The notes beneath the pieces are model-generated. The model was not told the origin of the DNA. It was given only the letters and a program-made list of their open reading frames with translations, and searched no databases. From NCBI RefSeq assembly GCF_000688455.1, contig NZ_JIAL01000001.1, positions 2,387,001 through 2,451,000 on the forward strand: 64,000 nucleotides of DNA. Reading direction: 5' to 3'. Position numbers and translations under genes: made by a program. The stretch's first letter is position 1. Every line of letters begins with the position of its first letter. Shown here piece by piece: positions 4,229 to 62,070 of the stretch. This DNA is from Pseudacidobacterium ailaaui (GTDB taxonomy: Bacteria; Acidobacteriota; Terriglobia; Terriglobales; Acidobacteriaceae).

Positions 4229-6226
4229 GTGTCTGAATCTGTATCTATGTGGGAAACAAACATGACCCGTCCCTGGGAGGGCGCGGCGGATGAGTCGGGT
4301 CTGGAGAGCTGGGTTGAGGCGGCGCTCGAAAGACACCACCATGCTTTGCAGCAGTTGACGGCCGTTTCCGGCCCGCGGACGGTGGAAAATACTCTGGTTT
4401 TTTATGATAACGCCGTTGCCGAACTGAGCACGGCGCGCTCCCTGACGGCACTGCTGAACAGCGTGCATCCGGAGAAGAAGGTCCGGGACAAGGCACAGGA
4501 GCTTCTTGAGAAACTGGCTGAGGCGGCCACGCTTTTGGCCTTGAACCAGGATGTTTATCGCGCCCTGCGCGGGCTGGACCTCTCCGGCATGGACGGGGGT
4601 ACCCGGCATTATGTGGAGCGGACGCTGCTCCAATACCGCCTGGCCGGAGTGGACAAGGACGAGGCAACCCGATCCAGACTAAAGGACCTGCACGAGAAAG
4701 CCACACGGCTGTCGCTGGCCTTTCGCCGCAATGTGCAGGAAAACGTCAATAAAGTTGTCGTCGAGGACAGGTCTGAACTGGAAGGTCTGCCGGAGGACTT
4801 TCTTGCCAGCCATCCTGCAGACGAACACGGCCAGATTACGCTGACGACGGATTTTCCCGATTATCTTCCGGTGATGACTTTTGCCAGCAATCCGAAACTG
4901 CGTCTACGCATGTTTCTGGCCTACAATACCCGGGCGTATCCGGCAAACGAAGGCGTCCTGCTGGACCTGCTGAAGACGCGGCGGGAAATTGCCAATCTGC
5001 TGGGATTTGAGACCTGGGCCGATCTGGCGACTGCCGACCAGATGATGGAATCGGCACAGAATCTGCGGGCGTTCCTCGATGATCTGGACAAGGCGACCAA
5101 ACCCGGGGCGGAGCGGGAGTATGCAGCGGTCCTTGCGTTTGCGCGGCAGCGCGAACCCAGGCTGGTAGCCATCGATGCCGATAGTCGCTCGTATTGGTAT
5201 GAGCAATATCGTCGTGCGGCCTATGACTTCGATTCGCAGACGGTGAGGCCCTACTTCCCCTATGAACGAGTGGAAAAGGGGGTCCTCGAAACGGCGCAGA
5301 AGCTCTTCCGGGTCAGCTTTCGTCCGGCCGAGGATGTCGAAGTCTGGCACCCCTCGGTGGGAGCATGGGAGGTCTTTGACGGGGAGCAGCGCATCGGGCG
5401 GTTTTACCTTGACATGCATCCGCGCGAGGGCAAGGACAAGTGGTTCAGCGCCCATCCGCTGATACCCGGCATCGCAGGCAGACAGTTGCCCGAAGCAGCG
5501 CTGGTGTGCAATTTCCCTGAGCCGAAGCAAGGGAATCCGGCGCTGTTGCAGTACTCCGACGTGGTGACTTTCTTTCATGAATTCGGCCATCTGATGCACG
5601 CCTTACTGGGCGGACAGCAGAAGTGGGCGGGCATCAGCGGCATTGCTACCGAGGACGATTTTGTGGAAGTGCCTTCGCAGATGCTGGAGGAATTTTTCCG
5701 TGACGCAAAATTGCTGGCGACTTTTGCCAGGCATTTTCAGACCGACGAGGCGATTCCGGCAGAGCTGGTCGCCAAAATGAACCGCGCCGGGGCCTTTGGA
5801 CGCGCAGACTGGGTGCGCACCCAGCTCTTCTACACCACATATTCGTTTGACACGCACTACGATGATCCTGCGACGTTGAATCTGGATGTGCTTTTGCAGG
5901 CCGATTACACGAAGTTTCTTCCCTATACGTGGATTGATGGAAACCGGATGTATGCCAGCTTCACCCACCTTACGGGGTATTCCTCGAACTACTACACCTA
6001 CCTGTATGACAAGGTGATTGCACTGGATTTCTTCAGCCAGTTTGACCGCAGCCATCTGCTGGAAGATCCGGCGGCCATGCGTTATCGCAAAACGGTTCTG
6101 GAGCCAGGCGGGTCGGTCCCTGGGAAAGAAATTGTCCGGCAATTTCTGGGCAGAGAGCAGAGCCTGGATGCATTTACGCGGTGGATCGGGGAAGAGTTTG
6201 AGCCGGCCCCTGTGCTGCAAACCTAG
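4229..6226 (+). CDS. M3-family zinc oligopeptidase
   Basis: Metallopeptidase of the thimet oligopeptidase/oligopeptidase family (M3) that cleaves short peptides; probably cytoplasmic because no signal peptide is visible. The zinc site HEFGH is at about residues 450-454, and the downstream Glu ligand lies in the segment DDFVEVPSQMLEEF. The length of 665 residues is typical. I prefer the GTG at 4229 because GAGGA lies 8 bases upstream. An in-frame TTG at 4214 and ATGs at 4247 and 4262 are alternatives. The conserved C-terminal region with GYSSNYYTYLYDK and RYRKTVLEPGGS is intact. The SDR gene follows 72 bases downstream on the same strand and could be cotranscribed. Confidence 0.9.
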   Translation: MSESVSMWETNMTRPWEGAADESGLESWVEAALERHHHALQQLTAVSGPRTVENTLVFYDNAVAELSTARSLTALLNSVHPEKKVRDKAQELLEKLAEAATLLALNQDVYRALRGLDLSGMDGGTRHYVERTLLQYRLAGVDKDEATRSRLKDLHEKATRLSLAFRRNVQENVNKVVVEDRSELEGLPEDFLASHPADEHGQITLTTDFPDYLPVMTFASNPKLRLRMFLAYNTRAYPANEGVLLDLLKTRREIANLLGFETWADLATADQMMESAQNLRAFLDDLDKATKPGAEREYAAVLAFARQREPRLVAIDADSRSYWYEQYRRAAYDFDSQTVRPYFPYERVEKGVLETAQKLFRVSFRPAEDVEVWHPSVGAWEVFDGEQRIGRFYLDMHPREGKDKWFSAHPLIPGIAGRQLPEAALVCNFPEPKQGNPALLQYSDVVTFFHEFGHLMHALLGGQQKWAGISGIATEDDFVEVPSQMLEEFFRDAKLLATFARHFQTDEAIPAELVAKMNRAGAFGRADWVRTQLFYTTYSFDTHYDDPATLNLDVLLQADYTKFLPYTWIDGNRMYASFTHLTGYSSNYYTYLYDKVIALDFFSQFDRSHLLEDPAAMRYRKTVLEPGGSVPGKEIVRQFLGREQSLDAFTRWIGEEFEPAPVLQT

Positions 6227-11834: not shown

Positions 11835-11852
11835 GATTTAATCGTTTCAATC
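11835..11852. promoter_or_regulatory. LacI-type operator candidate upstream of the exported sugar protein
   Basis: An 18-base imperfect palindrome centred on CG (14 of 18 positions symmetric) contains AAACGATT on the minus strand. It sits in the lacI / exported-protein divergent region, 38 bases before the chosen start of the latter. A central CpG and dyad symmetry are typical of LacI-family operators. Confidence 0.5.
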
Positions 11853-11912: not shown

Positions 11913-11924
11913 GAAAACGATGTC
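11913..11924. promoter_or_regulatory. LacI-type operator candidate overlapping the lacI start
   Basis: GAAAACGATGTC overlaps the lacI initiation codon at 11920 and shares the core found upstream of the exported protein and both TonB receptors. Binding here would allow autoregulation. It is about 75 bases from the other site in this divergent region. Confidence 0.4.
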
Positions 11925-12966
11925 CACCATTATTGAAGTAGCAAAACGGGCAAATGTTTCAATCGCGACAGTTTCCAATGTCATCCGCGGGACCCGGCGG
12001 GTCAGCGACAAGTTGACTGCGCGTGTCCAGGCAGCCATCCGTGAGTTGAACTATTCGCCGAATGAAATTGCCCGCAGCCTGAAAGTCCGCCAGACGCGGA
12101 TGCTGGGCATGGTCCTGCCGGACATCACCAATCCGTTTTTTCCGGAGATCATTCGAGGTGCGGAAGACACTGCATTTGAGCGCGGATATTTTCTGGTGAC
12201 AGCAAATACCGACGAGCAGATCGGCAGGGAAAAGAGGATTGTTGCTGCCCTGCGCGCCTACCGCGTGGATGGCATTCTTCTGGCGTCTGCCAGCGGCAAG
12301 GACATCTCTCATCTGAAAAGTACTCTGGATGCTGGCATGGCTGTGGTTTGTCTCGACCGGACTGTTCCGGGAATGAAGACCGATGCGGTCCTGCTGGACA
12401 ATGTGCGTGGTGCGCGGGAATGCGTCCGCCACCTCATCCAGAAAGGGCATAAGCGGATTGCCATCATTACCGGAGCATTAGACTTGCAGACAGGCCGGGA
12501 GCGTCTGCGCGGTTATGAAGAGGCATTGGAGGAGGCCGGAATTGCGATTGATCCTCGCCTGATCTACCGGGGCGATTTTCGTTATGAATCGGGCTACAGG
12601 CTCGGCGAGCAGATCGTAAAGCAGGCCCGGCGCCCCTCGGCAATCTTTGTGTGCAATGGAGTCATGGCCATTGGCGTCCTGAAGGCATTTGAAGAATCAG
12701 AAATCGAGTGCCCGCAGGACATGGCCCTGGCCACGTTTGATGACATCAAGCTGGACAGTCCCTTCCACCCGCGGCTCACCACCGTGGTGCAACCCAGCTA
12801 TGAGATGGGGGCGCGCGCCGCCACCATTCTGATGGACCGCATTGAAGGAAAGCTCAAGAAAGAGGCTGTACTGGTGCGCGTTTCTCCCACGCTCGTTCTT
12901 CGTGAATCGACTGAAAATTACATGCTTCCTTCTGGCAGGGGAAAGGGCCGCCGTTCCAGGAGGTAA
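11920..12966 (+). CDS. LacI-family transcriptional regulator
   Basis: DNA-binding sugar-responsive regulator, 348 residues. The N-terminal LacI helix-turn-helix is clear (IIEVAKRANVSIATVSNVI, residues 3-21), followed by the hinge helix region YSPNEIARSLK. A periplasmic-binding-protein-like effector domain follows (GMVLPDITNPFF onward) with the CNGVMAIGVLKAF and LATFDDIKLDS blocks. It is placed between the divergent exported-protein/mutarotase operon and the isomerase/porter/GH172 operon, so it most likely controls both arms. The upstream region holds two operator-like sites. The Arg/Lys-rich C-terminal tail is not unusual for the family. Confidence 0.95.
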   Translation: MSTIIEVAKRANVSIATVSNVIRGTRRVSDKLTARVQAAIRELNYSPNEIARSLKVRQTRMLGMVLPDITNPFFPEIIRGAEDTAFERGYFLVTANTDEQIGREKRIVAALRAYRVDGILLASASGKDISHLKSTLDAGMAVVCLDRTVPGMKTDAVLLDNVRGARECVRHLIQKGHKRIAIITGALDLQTGRERLRGYEEALEEAGIAIDPRLIYRGDFRYESGYRLGEQIVKQARRPSAIFVCNGVMAIGVLKAFEESEIECPQDMALATFDDIKLDSPFHPRLTTVVQPSYEMGARAATILMDRIEGKLKKEAVLVRVSPTLVLRESTENYMLPSGRGKGRRSRR

Positions 12967-54273: not shown

Positions 54274-57200
54274 TCAAAATTCGATTTTCATCAGGAACTG
54301 TACGTTGCGCGGTCCGTTGACCATCGAGGTCGGACTGACGAAGCCGAAGGTGTAGTAATCGTTGGGCCCGTCGGTGTTGGGCCGGTTAAAGATATGACGA
54401 TTGAACGCGTCAATCATATCGGCCTCAAATCGGAAGGTGAGTCCCTCTGTGATGGGGATACGTTTAATGATGCTGAAGTCCTCATCGAGGTAACGGAAAC
54501 TGCGTATCTCGCTTGTGGTGCGGGGCATGTCGCCGAATACATATCCCCGCGAGTTGACCAGACTGGCGCTGTTGGGATCATACATAGCACCGTAATTAAA
54601 GTAGCGATATGGGTTGGGGTTGGTCGCCGGATTGTAAACATCATTGCTAAAAATGGCCTGTTTTGCCACGTCAAAGTGTCCGTTACGGACCCAGTTGCTG
54701 GCCAGAGGCTGTCCCTGGACGCGGCTATACCGGATGCAGTTATCAAAGCCGGGAATGCCCGTGGCGCAGTAGAAGGAGATGGGCTGGCCGGACTGATAAC
54801 GCTGTACACCCCCGATCTGCCATCCGCCGACAACCTTGTCCACGACACCGCCTTTCGACAGGAACTTCTTTCCCTTGCCGAAGGGCAGTTCATACAGGTA
54901 GCTCAGCACGAAGGTCTGCGGGGTGTCCTGGTTGCTGATGGCCTTCTCGGTCTTTTTGTTGAAGGGGTTCTGGATGACGCCGCCGCCGTGCAGGTTGGAG
55001 AAATAGGGCAGGGCATCGTCAGCGTCGGTAAGTGTCTTGGACCAAGTGTAGGACGCCAGCAGATTCAGTCCATCATGGAAGCGCCGCTGGAGAGAGGTTT
55101 CCAGCGCATGATAGCTGGATTGACCGAGGTTTTCCAGGCAGCAGTCGGTATTGAAGCCAAAGTACTGCGGATACGGGCGCAGGGCCTGGGCCACGGTCTG
55201 CGAAGTAGGAAATGTGCTGTAGGGCAAATGGACTCCGGCCTGCTGCGCGGCTGCGGAAGTTATGGGTGCGCTCAAGGTATTTCCCAGAGCAAAGTATTTT
55301 TCCGGCAGGCAGTTCCAGCAATCAAACGTAGAACGCAGGTGGGTGGAGTGCTGGCCGACGTAGGTCATGTCCCAGATCAGGTCGGTTGCTAACTGGTGTT
55401 GTACACCAAGGCTCCAGTTTTCCACCATGCCGGGCCGGTTGAAGTTGGGAGAGATGTAGGTCGGCCCGTTGAAATTCAACTGCGTGCCGTCGAGGTTCGG
55501 TGGTTTGGTATAGGCCGGGAATCCCGGAGAAGCATCGAGGGTGAAGGACGGGTCGAATCCATTGGGGCTGAAGAAGCCGGGGTTTGCCTGAAAGCCGGTG
55601 CGCAGGTCTGTGCCGAAGTCGGCGTAAATCATAGCAGCGTAGATGATGCCTGCCCCGCCGCGGACGACCATTTTGTTGTCCATGGCCTTGGGCGACCAGG
55701 CGAAACCGACGCGCGGGCCAAAATCTTTGTGCCAGGGCTTGACCCAGGTCTCTCCGGTGACGCCGGTGCGGCCCTGGCCCTTTCCGGCGAAGACCAGGAC
55801 GCCGGGAAGGTTGCCGGCGGCAGGGTTCGGAGCAGAAAGATCAATATTGGATGTGTTATCGTCCCGTTCGCGACGCGGAACGTCAACGTCCCAGCGCAGG
55901 CCGTAGTTCAGGGTAAGGGTAGGTGTGATCTTAAAGTTGTCCTGAATAAACAACGCATAATAGTGGGCCAGCCATTTGGGTTGGTTGGCATAGGACGTCA
56001 GCGTGGCGTAGCCGACCTGTCCTGTCAGCAGGCTGGCCAGACCGTTGCCGGTAGTCGCGACGGTACCATTTGTGGCCGAGGTGGTATAGGAGTCAAAGTC
56101 GAGTTCTCCGCTTTCTCCGGCGTGGCTGAGTGGGAAGTAAATCTGATAGCGGTAGTCCAGGCCGAACTTGATTTCGTGTCTGCCGTGGATCCAGGTATAG
56201 GTGTCGTTCAGACGATATCCATTGTCAATGGTGTCTCCGTCCACGTTGTCGCCGAAGCCGGTATAGCCGCCGACTACGATGGCAGGGAAAGTGCGGCCGC
56301 CGCCATTGCTAATGCCGAGCTTGGAATCCCAGTTGCCGCCATAGCGAATTCCGGCGCCATAATTGCCGCTGTTGGTGCGGTTATAGCCCAGATTGAAGTG
56401 ATTGAGCTGAGTGGCAGTAAAGGCATAGTCGTAGCCGAAGCGCAGATAGTGAGTGAAGAAGTCCTGGTTACGACCTGCCCCAGCCACGGAGGGGAGCCAG
56501 GGATTGGTGGAGAGGCGGGTGTTGTCGCGCGAGTTGTAGGTAAAGTACATCTTCTGCTTCGGGGTAAGGTTCTGGTCCACGCGCACGGTCATGGAGGTGT
56601 CCAGAATGGGGAAGGTCCAGCGATAGACGTAGTTGTTGGTGAGGGAGCTGGTCTGCGGAGCGGGATAGTAGCTCTTGAGGTTGTTGATGATGCTCTGGGC
56701 CGCAGAACTGAGGGCATAATTGGTGATCTTGTTCCCAGGGAAGGCGGTGCGGCAGTAATTGGAGCCGACGAGTCGGGTGGTGCGGGGATCAAAGATCTGT
56801 CCCTGGTAGATGGTCGACCCATCGCATGGATTCGTGCCTACGGGAGTCGTTGTGAGATATGCACTGAAGTCTCCATTGAGCATGGCTGGAGTCGGGATGG
56901 TATCGGTGCTGATGCCGCCGGTGGTCTGCCGGTACTGCTCCCAGGAGAAGAAGAAGAAGGTCTTGTCGCGGCCGTTATAGAGTTTCGGGATCCAGACCGG
57001 GCCGCCGAGAGTACCGCCGTAGTCGTTCTTTTTGTCCAGAGGGCGCTGGTAGTTCGCGCGCTGTGCGGGGTCGTCCTTGTAGTAAGAGAGGTAAAGGTTA
57101 TTTCCCCAGTTGTTGGCGTCCAGTGCCTCGTTTTTGAACAGGTCGTAGACTTTTCCGTGAAACTTGTTGGTGCCGGCCGTGGTGCTGAAACTTTCAATGC

Positions 57201-57972
57201 CGCCGGTGGTCCGTCCCAGCTCAGCCGGCATGGTGGACAGCTCCACTTTATAGGTTGAGATGGCTTCGACCGAGGGAGCGGTCTCATCGAAAGAGGAGCC
57301 GTTTTCCGAGCGGTAGATGCTGGCCCCATCGAGAAGGACCTCAGTGGAATAGGCCTGGCCGCCCGAGATTTTGGATTCAAAGGTGCCGCCGTTTCCATTT
57401 GCTGTGCCCGGACCGGCAGTGCCGGGCATGAGGAAGACAAACGCCTCAGGCGAACGCATGGCGCTGACCACGCTTCCATTCAGATTCAGAGGAAGATCAA
57501 GGGCCTGTTTGGAGGTAATGACGCCGAAGACGTCCGAGGTTTCGGTCTGAATCGTCGGGGCGTCTCCCTGGACGGTGACGGTCTCCTGCGCAGCCCCGAC
57601 CTGAAGAGTGACATTGACGGCACTGGTGGACCCGACCTGTACCACGACGCCGTGCACGGTCTCAGTTTTGAATCCCGTAGCGGTGACGGTAATGTCATAG
57701 GTGCCAATATTGACATTTGGGAACCGGTAGGCACCTGCCCCTGTCGAAACGGTTTCGTAGGTGGTATGCCGGTTTTCTTCAACGGCAGTGAGTCTGGCCC
57801 CTCCGATGACGCTTCCGGTCACATCCTGCACATTGCCTGCGATGGCGCCCTGGTTGGTCTGGGCGAACACGGGAAGAGAGCAAAGAGCAAGGGACGTGAG
57901 CGCAAAGCAGGAAAGCGAAGGAAACGAGGGCACTTTGCGGAAACGTATTCCCGCAAAACCAAAAAATTTCAT
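54274..57972 (-). CDS. TonB-dependent receptor with carboxypeptidase-regulatory domain (Oar-like), first copy
   Basis: Outer-membrane receptor/porin-like protein of 1232 residues. ATG 57972 has AGGAGG six bases upstream; the open frame to 57993 is not supported. A signal peptide ends at VFAQ, followed by a CarboxypepD_reg-like domain (about 40-130: GAIAGNVQDVTGSVIGGARL), a plug domain (PLNLNGSVVSAMRS, GGQAYSTEVLLDGASI) and a long beta barrel ending MKIEF, with a C-terminal aromatic residue as in outer-membrane barrels. Such proteins are abundant in Acidobacteria and are thought to import complex carbohydrates or other large ligands. Ligand unknown. Promoter and operator candidates lie upstream. 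Confidence 0.92.
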   Translation of the reverse strand: MKFFGFAGIRFRKVPSFPSLSCFALTSLALCSLPVFAQTNQGAIAGNVQDVTGSVIGGARLTAVEENRHTTYETVSTGAGAYRFPNVNIGTYDITVTATGFKTETVHGVVVQVGSTSAVNVTLQVGAAQETVTVQGDAPTIQTETSDVFGVITSKQALDLPLNLNGSVVSAMRSPEAFVFLMPGTAGPGTANGNGGTFESKISGGQAYSTEVLLDGASIYRSENGSSFDETAPSVEAISTYKVELSTMPAELGRTTGGIESFSTTAGTNKFHGKVYDLFKNEALDANNWGNNLYLSYYKDDPAQRANYQRPLDKKNDYGGTLGGPVWIPKLYNGRDKTFFFFSWEQYRQTTGGISTDTIPTPAMLNGDFSAYLTTTPVGTNPCDGSTIYQGQIFDPRTTRLVGSNYCRTAFPGNKITNYALSSAAQSIINNLKSYYPAPQTSSLTNNYVYRWTFPILDTSMTVRVDQNLTPKQKMYFTYNSRDNTRLSTNPWLPSVAGAGRNQDFFTHYLRFGYDYAFTATQLNHFNLGYNRTNSGNYGAGIRYGGNWDSKLGISNGGGRTFPAIVVGGYTGFGDNVDGDTIDNGYRLNDTYTWIHGRHEIKFGLDYRYQIYFPLSHAGESGELDFDSYTTSATNGTVATTGNGLASLLTGQVGYATLTSYANQPKWLAHYYALFIQDNFKITPTLTLNYGLRWDVDVPRRERDDNTSNIDLSAPNPAAGNLPGVLVFAGKGQGRTGVTGETWVKPWHKDFGPRVGFAWSPKAMDNKMVVRGGAGIIYAAMIYADFGTDLRTGFQANPGFFSPNGFDPSFTLDASPGFPAYTKPPNLDGTQLNFNGPTYISPNFNRPGMVENWSLGVQHQLATDLIWDMTYVGQHSTHLRSTFDCWNCLPEKYFALGNTLSAPITSAAAQQAGVHLPYSTFPTSQTVAQALRPYPQYFGFNTDCCLENLGQSSYHALETSLQRRFHDGLNLLASYTWSKTLTDADDALPYFSNLHGGGVIQNPFNKKTEKAISNQDTPQTFVLSYLYELPFGKGKKFLSKGGVVDKVVGGWQIGGVQRYQSGQPISFYCATGIPGFDNCIRYSRVQGQPLASNWVRNGHFDVAKQAIFSNDVYNPATNPNPYRYFNYGAMYDPNSASLVNSRGYVFGDMPRTTSEIRSFRYLDEDFSIIKRIPITEGLTFRFEADMIDAFNRHIFNRPNTDGPNDYYTFGFVSPTSMVNGPRNVQFLMKIEF

Positions 57973-58018
57973 ACAGCGCCTCCTGGATAACACCTGGTGT
58001 TTTTCTTAAAAGAATTTA

Positions 58019-58030
58019 GAAATCGTTTTC
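58019..58030. promoter_or_regulatory. LacI-type operator candidate, TonB receptor 1 leader
   Basis: GAAATCGTTTTC, the reverse of GAAAACGATTTC, is a near-perfect dyad (10 of 12) with a central CG. It lies downstream of the promoter, about 36-47 bases past the expected transcription start, where a bound repressor could block elongation. Confidence 0.5.
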
Positions 58031-58072
58031 CGAACTGTCCGCAAAAGTACAACAAGAAAATTTCAAGTGCAG

Positions 58073-58101
58073 AGGATAGTGTCGAAAAAAATCGTTGTCA
58101 A
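58073..58101 (-). promoter_or_regulatory. Promoter of TonB receptor 1
   Basis: A perfect TTGACA and TATCCT are separated by exactly 17 bases on the minus strand, about 100 bases before the start codon. The spacer is T-rich. Confidence 0.7.
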
Positions 58102-58188
58102 GAATTTTTTTGAGCCAGATTTTATGATGATTCCCTAGTAAACAGGCCAAGCACCAGTGGGACCAGAGAAGGTTTTTGGGGCGACTGT

Positions 58189-58200
58189 GTAAACGATTAC
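58189..58200. promoter_or_regulatory. Upstream LacI-type operator candidate of TonB receptor 1
   Basis: GTAAACGATTAC, a 10-of-12 dyad with central CG, lies about 90 bases upstream of the -35 box and 170 bases centre-to-centre from the downstream site. The pair brackets the promoter. Confidence 0.45.
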
Positions 58201-58260
58201 TTCAATGTCTGCACGGAGGGGACAAGCAAGACACGGGTCCAGGACCGAGGACGCCTGCCA

Positions 58261-58293
58261 AAAGAAAAGGCTGCGAGGCAGGGCCCCGCAGCC
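58261..58293 (-). terminator. Terminator after the second TonB receptor
   Basis: GGCTGCG and CGCAGCC form a 7-bp stem; on the minus strand TTTTCTTTT follows directly. A canonical intrinsic terminator just past the receptor stop. Confidence 0.8.
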
Positions 58294-58313
58294 GGCAAGT
58301 CCTTCAGGAGCTT

Positions 58314-61300
58314 CTAATAATGAATACGCAGTACGACCTGCATGTTTCGCGGTCCGAGGACGAGCTGACCGGTGTTGAACTGGTTCAGGATCTGCCCAAA
58401 GGACGGGTCGTATGGGTTGGTATCAGGCTTGGCAAAGACATGGCGGTTGAAGACGTTAAAGGCTTCCAGGCGCAGATCAATGCCCACCTGCTCGTGCACC
58501 TGCCATGTCTTGTTGAGGTTCATGTCCTCGTCTGCATAGTTGAAGGTGCGGATGTCGGCGGAGTTTCGCGGCATGGTGCCGAAGTGGTACGGACCGCCGT
58601 TGCGGTTTGCATTCGGGTCGGCGAAGGCCGCGCAGTTGAAATAGCCGGTACCATTGCAGGGGCCGGTGTAGTTAAAGGGATTAAATTTATGGTTCCGGGC
58701 CACATCGCTATAGACTGAGACCCCGGGGACCCGGTTGAAGCGGATTCCATTGTCAAAGCCGGGAATGCCAATGGCGCCATAAAAGCTCATGGGCTGTCCG
58801 GTGACATAGCGCTGGATGCCGCCAATGCGCCAACCACCAAGGATCTGGTTGACGACCGGGTGGGCGTTGGCAAGAAATTTGCGGCCTTTGCCGAAGGGCA
58901 AGTCGTAGAGGTAACTGACGACGAAATTATTAGGAACGTCCTGCGCGCTGACGGCCTTTTCTGCCTTCAGATTGTAGGGGTTTTGGGTGCCGCCCTGGCT
59001 GAGCAGGGTGTTCCAGTAGGGCTGGATGCTGTCGGCATCGGTGATGGTTTTCGAGAAAGTATAGGAGGCCAGCAAAGTCAGGCCCTGACTGAAACGCCGC
59101 TGGAGCTTCGCTTCCAAAGCATTGTAGGTGGCCTGGCCGGTGTTTTGCAGGTAGCTGTCTCCATTGATATAGCCATACTGCGGGAAGGGGCGTAGTGCCT
59201 GCTGGACGGTCACATCCGGCCCCCAGGTGTTGGTGAAGTTGGGGTAGGGCGCGCTGATGCCTGCAGCGATGGCCTGCGGAGAATTGATGGTTGCGTTCAG
59301 GGTGTCGCCAAGCTGGAGGTATTTTTCCGGCATGTCATTGAGGTAAATGAGCAGCGCGTGCAGGCGAGTCGAGTGCTGCCCCAGATATCCGATGGTGCCG
59401 ACGAGGTCTTTGGCAATTTCCTGTTGGACCTCAAGGGACCAGGACTGGACCATCGCCGGGCGGCCATAGGATTTGCCGACATAGTCTATGGCCTGACCAT
59501 TCAGTTGGGTGGGGTCAAGATTGATGCCGCTGGGAGGAGTGGGGAAGCCGTTGTCCAGTGGCCCCCAGGGCAGGAAGCCGTTTGCATTGAAATAGTTGGG
59601 GTTGGCGGTAAAGCCCTGGGTCAGGCCCTGTCCATAATCCGCATAGATGAGCGGGCCGTAGTAAATACTGTAATTGCCGCGAAGTACAGACAGGCCCTGA
59701 AGGAAGCCCGGAGACCAGGCAAAACCGATGCGCGGAGAAAAGTCTTTGCGGTAGACGTCCGCCCAGGTTTCCTGCATATTGCCATTGCGTCCTGCACCTT
59801 TGCCGGCAAATTCCAGTACGCCAGGAATGCCATTGGCACCGGGGTTGGGCGCGGTCGGATTGAGAGCAGAGCTGTTGCCTTCAGCTTCCCAGCGCGGTGT
59901 ATCCACATCCCAGCGGAAACCGAGATTGAAGGTGAGGTTGGGACGGAACTTCCAGTCATCCTGAAGAAAAGCGCCATAGTAGTGGGAAATCCAGCGGGGG
60001 TGATGGTAGAAGATCTGGCGGTTTTCATCCCCCGGGACCCCGAGCAGGAAGGCCGCAACGCTGTTCCCTGTGGGACCGATCTCATTGTTTGTCCCAGCGG
60101 TCTGGTTGCGGAAGAAGTTAAAGGAACCGGCCTGCCCGCCATTGTTGATGTAAGAGAACTGCTGCCAGCGGAAGGTCCCGCCGAAGCGGATGCTATGGGC
60201 ACCCTTCTGCCAGTTGACGTAATCATAAGCAGCGATGGCGTTGTCTACGTTGTCATCGGCATTGGCCTGACCGATGGTGGGGCCATCCTGGCCAAGACTG
60301 AATACGGGAAATGTTGGCCCATAGCCATTCTGGATGCCGAGCATCTGGTCCCAGTCTTTGCCGGAGAGTGCAGCGCGAGATGAGTTGTAGCTGTTGATGC
60401 GGTTACTGCCGATGACGAACTCGTTCAGGATGCTGGGTGAAAGAATGTAGTCCCATCCGCCGCGGAAGTACTTGGCGTAAAAGTCCTGCACCTGCGGACC
60501 GGTATCAATCGGGAAGGGGAAGTTTGGATTTCCCGGCGTGTAGTTTTCGCGTGAGTTCCAGAAGCCGAAGAGGCGATGTCTTGTGCCGATGTTCTGGTCA
60601 ATCCGGATGCCGTAAACCGATTGGGTATTGGTGCTGGTGGTGAAGTAGGCAAAGTTGTTGATCTGTCCGGGGAGATTGGGTGGAGGAATGTAGGCCAGGA
60701 TTTTCTGTGCCAACTGGCTGCGGTTGGTGGGGACCTGGTTGTTTTGAAATTCGGTGCGGCACATCACTCCATTTACGGTCTGGGTCGTGTTGGGGTCGAA
60801 GATCTGGCCAGTGAGCAGGACCCGGCCGGTGCATGGGTTGACGGGGTTCCCGGCCACAGGGCCGCCCAAGGTAGCAGAAAAATCTCCATTCCGCTCTGCG
60901 GCCGTGGGAACGGTGCTGAGGGCCGTACCGCCGTTGTTATAGCGCAGCTCCTCAAAAGAGAAGAAGAAGAAAGTCTTGTCGCGGCCGTCGTACAGATGGG
61001 GGATGCGTACCGGACCACCCATGGTGATGCCATAGTCGTTCTTGGTGTCTGGAGGGCGTTTGAACTGGCTTTGTACGGAGGGGTTTCCCGCGTTCAGGGC
61101 AAGGTATCCGTTGTTAAACCAACTGTTGGCGTCCAGAGCGGCATTTTTGTAGAAATCATAGATGACGCCGTGGTAGCTGTTGGTGCCGCTGCGGGTCTTG
61201 AAGTTGGCCAACCCGCCGGTAGTGCGGCCGAACTCAGCAGGCAGGGAGGTAGTTTCGACGCGGAACTCCTGTACGGACTCGACCGAAGGCGTGGTCTGGT

Positions 61301-61940
61301 CAAAGAGGCCGGACCCATTTTCCGAGCGCTGTGTGCTGATGCCATCGAGCAGATAGTCGCTGCCCAAGGTCTGGCCGCCATCAATCTTGGCGTAAGTCGT
61401 ACCACCGGAGGTGCCGGGTCCGACAGCGCCTGGGGTGAGAAATTCGAGCGTCTGAAGCGAGCGAAGCGCACCGGAGACCGCCAGCGGGAGTTCCTCAACC
61501 TGCTCGGAAGTGATGACAGTACCGATGTCGGAGGTGGAGGTTTCCAGGCCGGGGCCATTCGCCGTGACCTGCACGGTTTCAGTGGCTGCGCCGGCCTGCA
61601 TGGTCACATTTTGCGAGAAGCGTGTACCGATATAGACCCGGATGCCGGATTTCTGAAAGTCACGAAAGCCACTATAAGCGACCGTGAGGGTGTAGGTGCC
61701 GGGGCGGACGGACGGAAAGACATAGTATCCGGTGGAGGAGGTCCTGCCCTGATATTTGGTGCCGGCATTTTGTTCGGTCAGGGTGACGGCGGCATTCGCA
61801 ATGACGCTGCCGCTCGAGTCTGTGACGGTGCCATCGAGAGAGCCGGTGTCCAGCTGGGCGAAGGCGGGGTAAAGCGGGGTGAGAAGCAGTGGTATCAAAA
61901 GGATAAAGGCGAACTTGTGGAAACGTATTCCTGGAATCAC
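58314..61940 (-). CDS. TonB-dependent receptor with carboxypeptidase-regulatory domain (Oar-like), second copy
   Basis: Outer-membrane receptor of 1208 residues, clearly a paralogue of the receptor directly downstream. GTG 61940 has AAGGAGG eight bases upstream. Signal peptide to PAFAQ, then a CarboxypepD_reg-like domain (about 30-115: GSLDGTVTDSSGSVIANAAV), plug (QTLGSDYLLDGISTQRSENG) and barrel ending LRIHY. The two share motif order, for example AEFGRTTGGLANFKT here and AELGRTTGGIESFST there. Tandem duplication followed by divergence is likely. The promoter and an operator-like site are just upstream. Confidence 0.92.
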   Translation of the reverse strand: MIPGIRFHKFAFILLIPLLLTPLYPAFAQLDTGSLDGTVTDSSGSVIANAAVTLTEQNAGTKYQGRTSSTGYYVFPSVRPGTYTLTVAYSGFRDFQKSGIRVYIGTRFSQNVTMQAGAATETVQVTANGPGLETSTSDIGTVITSEQVEELPLAVSGALRSLQTLEFLTPGAVGPGTSGGTTYAKIDGGQTLGSDYLLDGISTQRSENGSGLFDQTTPSVESVQEFRVETTSLPAEFGRTTGGLANFKTRSGTNSYHGVIYDFYKNAALDANSWFNNGYLALNAGNPSVQSQFKRPPDTKNDYGITMGGPVRIPHLYDGRDKTFFFFSFEELRYNNGGTALSTVPTAAERNGDFSATLGGPVAGNPVNPCTGRVLLTGQIFDPNTTQTVNGVMCRTEFQNNQVPTNRSQLAQKILAYIPPPNLPGQINNFAYFTTSTNTQSVYGIRIDQNIGTRHRLFGFWNSRENYTPGNPNFPFPIDTGPQVQDFYAKYFRGGWDYILSPSILNEFVIGSNRINSYNSSRAALSGKDWDQMLGIQNGYGPTFPVFSLGQDGPTIGQANADDNVDNAIAAYDYVNWQKGAHSIRFGGTFRWQQFSYINNGGQAGSFNFFRNQTAGTNNEIGPTGNSVAAFLLGVPGDENRQIFYHHPRWISHYYGAFLQDDWKFRPNLTFNLGFRWDVDTPRWEAEGNSSALNPTAPNPGANGIPGVLEFAGKGAGRNGNMQETWADVYRKDFSPRIGFAWSPGFLQGLSVLRGNYSIYYGPLIYADYGQGLTQGFTANPNYFNANGFLPWGPLDNGFPTPPSGINLDPTQLNGQAIDYVGKSYGRPAMVQSWSLEVQQEIAKDLVGTIGYLGQHSTRLHALLIYLNDMPEKYLQLGDTLNATINSPQAIAAGISAPYPNFTNTWGPDVTVQQALRPFPQYGYINGDSYLQNTGQATYNALEAKLQRRFSQGLTLLASYTFSKTITDADSIQPYWNTLLSQGGTQNPYNLKAEKAVSAQDVPNNFVVSYLYDLPFGKGRKFLANAHPVVNQILGGWRIGGIQRYVTGQPMSFYGAIGIPGFDNGIRFNRVPGVSVYSDVARNHKFNPFNYTGPCNGTGYFNCAAFADPNANRNGGPYHFGTMPRNSADIRTFNYADEDMNLNKTWQVHEQVGIDLRLEAFNVFNRHVFAKPDTNPYDPSFGQILNQFNTGQLVLGPRNMQVVLRIHY

Positions 61941-61993
61941 TGGGATTGCCTCCTTGTAAACGGGGCCGCTTGGTCCGTTCGAATATTTCTTGA

Positions 61994-62005
61994 GTAATCG
62001 TTTTC
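61994..62005. promoter_or_regulatory. LacI-type operator candidate, TonB receptor 2 leader
   Basis: GTAATCGTTTTC (reverse GAAAACGATTAC) lies about 30-40 bases past the expected transcription start, the same layout as for receptor 1. Confidence 0.5.
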
Positions 62006-62040
62006 TAAACTAGGTAAGACCTTTAGCAACTTCAACGAGG

Positions 62041-62070
62041 AGATTAGTGGAAGAAAAAATACACTGTCAA
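62041..62070 (-). promoter_or_regulatory. Promoter of TonB receptor 2
   Basis: TTGACA and TAATCT are separated by 18 bases on the minus strand. The flanks (AAAAAT before TTGACA, T-run in the spacer) resemble the receptor 1 promoter. Confidence 0.7.

Follow-up and report, generated by a model that had tools for sequence, protein, structure and literature searches.

CcpA belongs to the LacI family of proteins. In the report on the Bacillus subtilis CcpA-cre system, the boxes located downstream of the transcription start are described as blocking elongation (PMC3463425), and the weak-box consensus given there (TGAAARCGYTTTCW) contains the core GAAARCGYTTTC, in which respect it resembles the sites dealt with here; CcpA differs, however, in being a global catabolite regulator that acts together with HPr-Ser-P. 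For the roadblock exerted by the Escherichia coli LacI, a spacing of 30 bp has been reported to let through more transcription from a weak promoter than does a longer spacing (PMC4132739). In Xanthomonas campestris the TonB-dependent receptor SuxA is described as being controlled by SuxR, a LacI/GalR-family repressor that silences this sugar-uptake outer-membrane receptor until its sugar arrives (PMC1790865). In a comparative-genomic reconstruction of LacI-family regulons, even palindromes with a central CG were assigned to 1173 of 1303 factors, and more than 75% of the reconstructed sites lay between 140 and 30 bp before the start codon (PMC4052901), as do those of the two receptor genes described below; in the main text of that work the strings acidobacteri, TonB, outer membrane, and arabinose do not appear. 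Our search of the open-licence literature turned up no paper describing receptors under LacI control in Acidobacteria. The control that we propose for two such receptors would be of a kind already known from SuxR and from the CcpA roadblocks, in that a repressor would keep an outer-membrane receptor silent; but, unlike SuxR, which is encoded within the suxA locus (PMC1790865), the candidate repressor lies 1.24 Mb away and the receptors are dispersed.

The window, by which we mean the whole stretch of 64,000 nucleotides analysed, corresponds to bases 2387001-2451000 of the single-contig genome (3,686,523 bases) of Pseudacidobacterium ailaaui, henceforth the home genome, and contains the receptor genes A and B, which are tandem paralogues with 46% identity (Table 1). 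The putative start codon of A is an ATG at 57972, preceded by AGGAGG at 57979-57984, and that of B a GTG at 61940, preceded by AGGAGG at 61949-61954. Both products matched the barrel PF25183 (E 8.8e-192 in B and 1.4e-185 in A); because the plug PF07715 was weak in B (E 0.041) and went unseen in A up to E 0.5, neither protein has a clean TonB family match, though by its architecture the label of TonB receptor appears a fair one. This 3.7 Mb genome holds approximately 64 receptors of the A/B type, which set we defined as the homologue matches beginning near the N-terminus, the start codons being assigned by script.

Table 1. Features of the window and of the home genome considered in this work (window coordinates unless marked as genome).
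Feature	Position	Strand	Remark
Receptor A gene	54274-57972	-	1232 aa; CarboxypepD_reg + OMP_b-brl_4
Receptor B gene	58314-61940	-	1208 aa; CarboxypepD_reg + OMP_b-brl_4
Putative promoter, receptor A	58073-58101	-	TTGACA-17-TATCCT
Putative promoter, receptor B	62041-62070	-	TTGACA-18-TAATCT
Proximal operator-like site, receptor A	58019-58030	-	GAAAACGATTTC; centre about +42 from putative start
Operator-like site, receptor B	61994-62005	-	GAAAACGATTAC; centre about +35 from putative start
Distal operator-like palindrome, receptor A	58189-58200		GTAAACGATTAC; one mismatch to GAAAACGATTwC
lacI-family gene of the window	11920-12966	+	linked earlier to the motif; probably not the partner
One-mismatch core	11913-11924	+	GAAAACGATGTC; overlaps lacI ATG (11920); probably chance
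araD-linked LacI gene	genome 1204060-1205148		1.24 Mb from receptors
Sister LacI gene	genome 3543920-3544930		same clade, 49% identity to araD-linked LacI
Lipoprotein, histidine-kinase and response-regulator genes	L087:2650-6558 = genome 1276649-1280557		divergent from third receptor paralogue
Receptor start codons with strict sites	genome 2448940, 2444972, 1920223		2448940 is B; 2444972 is A (two sites)
Further receptor start codons with strict sites	genome 158128, 469580, 2300287

A first-pass annotation had described at both receptors a TTGACA hexamer, a spacer of 17 or 18 bases, and a -10 box, followed by one and the same motif at 30-47 bases past the expected start, together with a second copy of that motif at 58189 near receptor A. 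The promoter coordinates were reproduced, the motif is located at both genes where it had been placed (edge to edge, the proximal sites span about +29 to +47 from the putative start point), and the second copy is present with one mismatch, 170 bp from A's proximal site centre to centre; we thus confirm the two-receptor promoter-plus-motif observation. The 12-mer common to the A and B leaders is GAAAACGATTWC, to which the window has 4 matches with at most one mismatch, versus 0.39 expected, a count that none of 100 shuffles reached. This 12-mer belongs to a class of palindromes centred on CpG, GWAANCGNTTWC, which is typical of LacI-family operators: the A/B site, an even palindrome with a central CG, complies with the operator rule formulated for that family (PMC4052901).

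By generalising from the 12-mer, we designated as strict any site that fully matches GWAANCGNTTWC. Such sites were not in excess over the entire home genome (19 versus 21 in the control) and were absent from 58 of the 64 home receptors; seven of the 19, however, lay at most 251 nt upstream of receptor genes, at 6 of those 64, where 1000 Markov-resampled upstream sets gave a mean of 0.097 and a maximum of 2. Two of these seven (469657 and 2300527) fall inside mechanically called ORFs. Of the 12 strict sites away from receptors, three are near the starts of glycoside-hydrolase genes: an exact GAAAACGATTTC begins 19 nt before the start of a GH43 gene, for which no good promoter match was found, and the others are near the starts of a GH67 gene (113 nt) and a GH2 gene (29 nt); eight of the remaining nine were flagged as lying within an ORF.

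When an alignment built from 11 homologues was used to scan the named genomes, 80 receptor loci were obtained, mostly from Acidobacteriaceae, five of which (L143, L168, L177, L199, L204) were dropped for lack of a usable start codon; 63 of the other 75, having at least 37% best-segment identity, constituted the main homologue set, and the 12 loci under that threshold were counted separately, with a strict site in one. In the main set a strict site was present upstream of 16 receptors and absent from 47, and when one mismatch was allowed 29 of the 63 qualified, versus 2 for the reversed pattern. Upon ranking all 256 half-sites in the form hhhhNCGNhhhh over these 63 upstreams, we found GTAA first (8 loci), followed by GAAA (5) and AAAA (4), with all the others in at most 2. 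When the 64 home and 63 homologous upstreams were pooled, the 127 contained 24 strict sites, the reversed control none, and 200 resampled sets of 127 a mean of 0.2 and a maximum of 2. The site recurs, then, above chance upstream of one functional kind of gene, the receptors; and the expectation that the motif would be found upstream of other receptors more often than at random was borne out, both by the 7 of 19 home sites and by the resampling and reversed controls.

The closest homologue of B (L186, 57% identity, from Granulicella sp. L60) carries an identical GAAAACGATTAC at -67, versus -65 in B, behind a promoter of the form TTGACA-18-TAGGCT; the next (L190, 54%) has GTAAACGTTTGC at -84, and another (L131, 52%) has GTAAACGTTTTC at -25. 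The sites of other homologues differ at the bases flanking the CG, the commonest form being GTAAACGCTTAC; and, since those bases vary, the receptor subfamily may depend on two or more regulators. The raw count of GAAAACGATTWC over 60 family genomes (105 versus 18 in the control) was set aside as support because 24 of the 30 loci inspected among those 105 lay inside ORFs of at least 80 aa, the excess being largely coding.

With regard to the position of the site relative to transcription, we searched for promoters of the form TTGAC[AG]-17/18-TAnnnT that leave space for a leader, taking the most downstream match. This pattern was present in 33 of the 127 receptor upstreams (resampled mean 0.37), and 11 of those 33 hold 12 strict sites, all but one of which lie 13-87 bp past the putative start point and ahead of the start codon—an arrangement whose probability is about 4e-6, under the assumption of uniform placement with one site per upstream and with both starts and start codons as deduced here. 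The sole exception is A's distal site, upstream of the promoter: the bracketing pair occurs at A alone, each of the other 10 promoter-linked upstreams having a single strict site, and its additional contribution to repression by looping is speculative. The other half of the 24 strict sites belong to upstreams without a promoter of that form. Sites lying between the start point and the start codon would fit a repression by roadblock or at promoter clearance. As a separate observation, the 22 promoter-bearing upstreams, of the 33, that lack a strict site may have operators of another kind.

The home genome encodes 10 LacI-domain genes above the Pfam cut-off, one of which is the response regulator described below; none in the window adjoins A or B. 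Among them, the LacI encoded in divergent orientation to araD and to genes for a sodium symporter, an isomerase, and ribulokinase is, on balance, the likeliest repressor of A and B, the clade being favoured because sites of the A/B class co-occur with its relatives. The site adjoining this gene at home, between it and the divergent operon, is GTAAACGTTTGC, with GAAAACGATTWC absent there. In 30 loci containing its relatives (54-100% identity, home included) we counted 13 strict sites in 10 loci, against about 0.5 expected for flanks of that total length by arithmetic from the home density; in 10 of the 13 the CG is flanked on each side by A or T, as at A and B, and GTAAACGTTTGC occurs in 10 further loci. 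Receptors and LacI neighbourhoods thereby have a site class in common: GAAAACGATTAC in G047, and GTAAACGTTTGC in 10 of the 30 loci as well as at L190.

Four GAAAACGATTWC sites lay no more than 2 kb from a candidate LacI. In G047, GAAAACGATTAC is found 100 bp behind a 65% relative of the araD-linked LacI; it precedes an aldose-epimerase gene by 27 nt, and on the other side there is a gene for an alpha-L-arabinofuranosidase. In G009, a single locus assembles a distant receptor, a symporter, and a 55% relative of the araD-linked LacI: the receptor, with just 33% identity to its best home match, has the promoter TTGACA-18-TACGGT followed by GAAAACGATTTC, and GAAATCGATTTC is located ahead of the LacI gene; a closer relative (60%) is encoded elsewhere in that genome. 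In G043, GAAAACGATTTC is 133 bp from the LacI match and before an isomerase gene; but the open frame of the LacI can be extended upstream over this site, which makes the place of the site unsure, and it was accordingly not used as support. The G030 site is inside a gene and was not counted.

A third receptor paralogue, at 1280762 (47% identity to B), has GTAATCGCTTCC and GTAAGCGCTTCC upstream and is divergent from genes for a lipoprotein of the sugar-binding type, a histidine kinase, and a response regulator that combines a receiver with a C-terminal LacI-type HTH. In Acidobacterium sp. S8 (L141) and Centralia_MAG_86 (L142) the same regulator is again near the homologous receptor, and its type is present in L302 as well; at E <= 1e-55 it was matched in 5 of 299 genomes from the class, the home genome among them, though one of those five matches covers residues 6-203 only and stops short of the LacI part. 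The neighbouring receptors in the home genome, L094, and L300 are preceded by sites with the half GCTTCC or a similar one. We found no paper to the point, by title or abstract, on response regulators with a LacI output.

The first-pass annotation had also linked the motif to the window's own lacI, 46 kb from the receptors, by a copy of the core at that gene. The core is there as letters, with one mismatch; but it overlaps the ATG, is absent from all 5 orthologues, and is probably a chance occurrence, so that the link to this gene is not supported. A different palindrome, TTTAAnCGTTT as seen by eye, is present upstream in 3 of the 6 members, the window's included; a cut-off of E <= 1e-120 gave orthologues in 6 of 100 family genomes, the home genome being one; and the recognition helix reads TVSN versus TVSR in the candidate regulators, the variable residue of which we take to read the outer G of the site. 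That this lacI should regulate A, B, and itself is therefore improbable, and we rejected it as the partner; what endures of the roadblock proposal is a LacI-type operator past strong sigma-70-like promoters that recurs elsewhere. The sister LacI, rather than the araD-linked one, is an unlikely reader of the A/B sites, if less so: it belongs to the same clade, a 60% relative is encoded about 4 kb behind the receptor L156, which carries GAAAACGCTTTC, and across 24 loci the flanks of its relatives contained 7 strict sites, as well as one GAAAACGATTTA (L282); but in 6 of those 7 a C or G adjoins the central CG, which distinguishes them from A and B. The window's lacI is itself preceded, at 11837-11850, by TTTAATCGTTTCAA, a possible operator of that gene, with similar palindromes at 2 of 5 orthologues.

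The response regulator next to the third paralogue, bearing as it does a LacI HTH beside a receptor with sites of its own, might conceivably read the A/B sites as well; yet the third-paralogue sites have the half GCTTCC, unlike those of A and B, and the system is rare among the class genomes, so that we regard this possibility as slightly more improbable even than that of the window's lacI. Two further explanations would dispense with a DNA-binding protein. The palindrome is situated within the putative untranslated leader and might act as a small RNA hairpin; but the same site class is found upstream of a promoter (A's distal site) and in LacI gene flanks, and a 4-bp stem looks weak by its sequence, which considerations make such a hairpin highly improbable. 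The resemblance between two leaders might, finally, be fortuitous in a pair of tandem paralogues with 46% identity; but the resampling and reversed controls contradict that notion, as do the sites at 16 of the 63 homologues, and we give it hardly any credence.

The reading that we prefer, and hold to be rather likely, is that a LacI-family repressor uses the A/B motif as its operator and would block receptor transcription until an inducing sugar, probably linked to arabinose, is present. From the observed site, promoter, position, recurrence, and co-occurrence with one LacI clade, we infer binding, repression, an inducer, and a roadblock mechanism, as follows. Without inducer, a LacI-family dimer—most likely that of the araD-linked LacI, with the sister second, as judged from the sharing of motifs—would occupy GAAAACGATTWC, at about +29 to +47 of each receptor gene, and prevent RNA polymerase from leaving or passing; the inducing sugar would then free the repressor, and the two OMP_b-brl_4 receptors would be made. 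The regulon would include the GH43 gene and a few other receptors, from which composition L-arabinose or an arabinose-containing oligosaccharide would be the likeliest inducer. Given a LacI-type palindrome past strong promoters and the same layout in some related receptors, transcription of the A and B uptake genes is probably repressed as long as no plant sugar, perhaps arabinose, is available. Such an operator, if readable, links single receptors with a sugar regulon, in this case that of araD/ribulokinase and a GH43 gene, and gives each receptor a testable substrate.

As to the third paralogue, its response regulator would be fed by the kinase and the sugar-binding lipoprotein. We put forward, tentatively and as a possibility that we would not favour at present, that the Acidobacteriaceae receptor subfamily uses one operator class, read by soluble LacI repressors at A, B, and some homologues and by the response regulator at the third paralogue, the sensor having been switched from cytoplasmic to envelope sugar while the DNA code was kept. 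Among the minor observations on these systems, the receptor upstream at L300:11782-11878 (G070) contains GTAAGCGTTTCC and GGAAGCGGTTAC 21 bp apart, with GGAAGCGCTTAC further on, and the home genome has a pair like GTAAGCGTTTCC/GGAAGCGGTTAC at 20 bp. In L302, an ORF of 125 aa (5037-5414), whose one solid Pfam match is the LacI HTH, is located just before the lipoprotein, kinase, and regulator genes.
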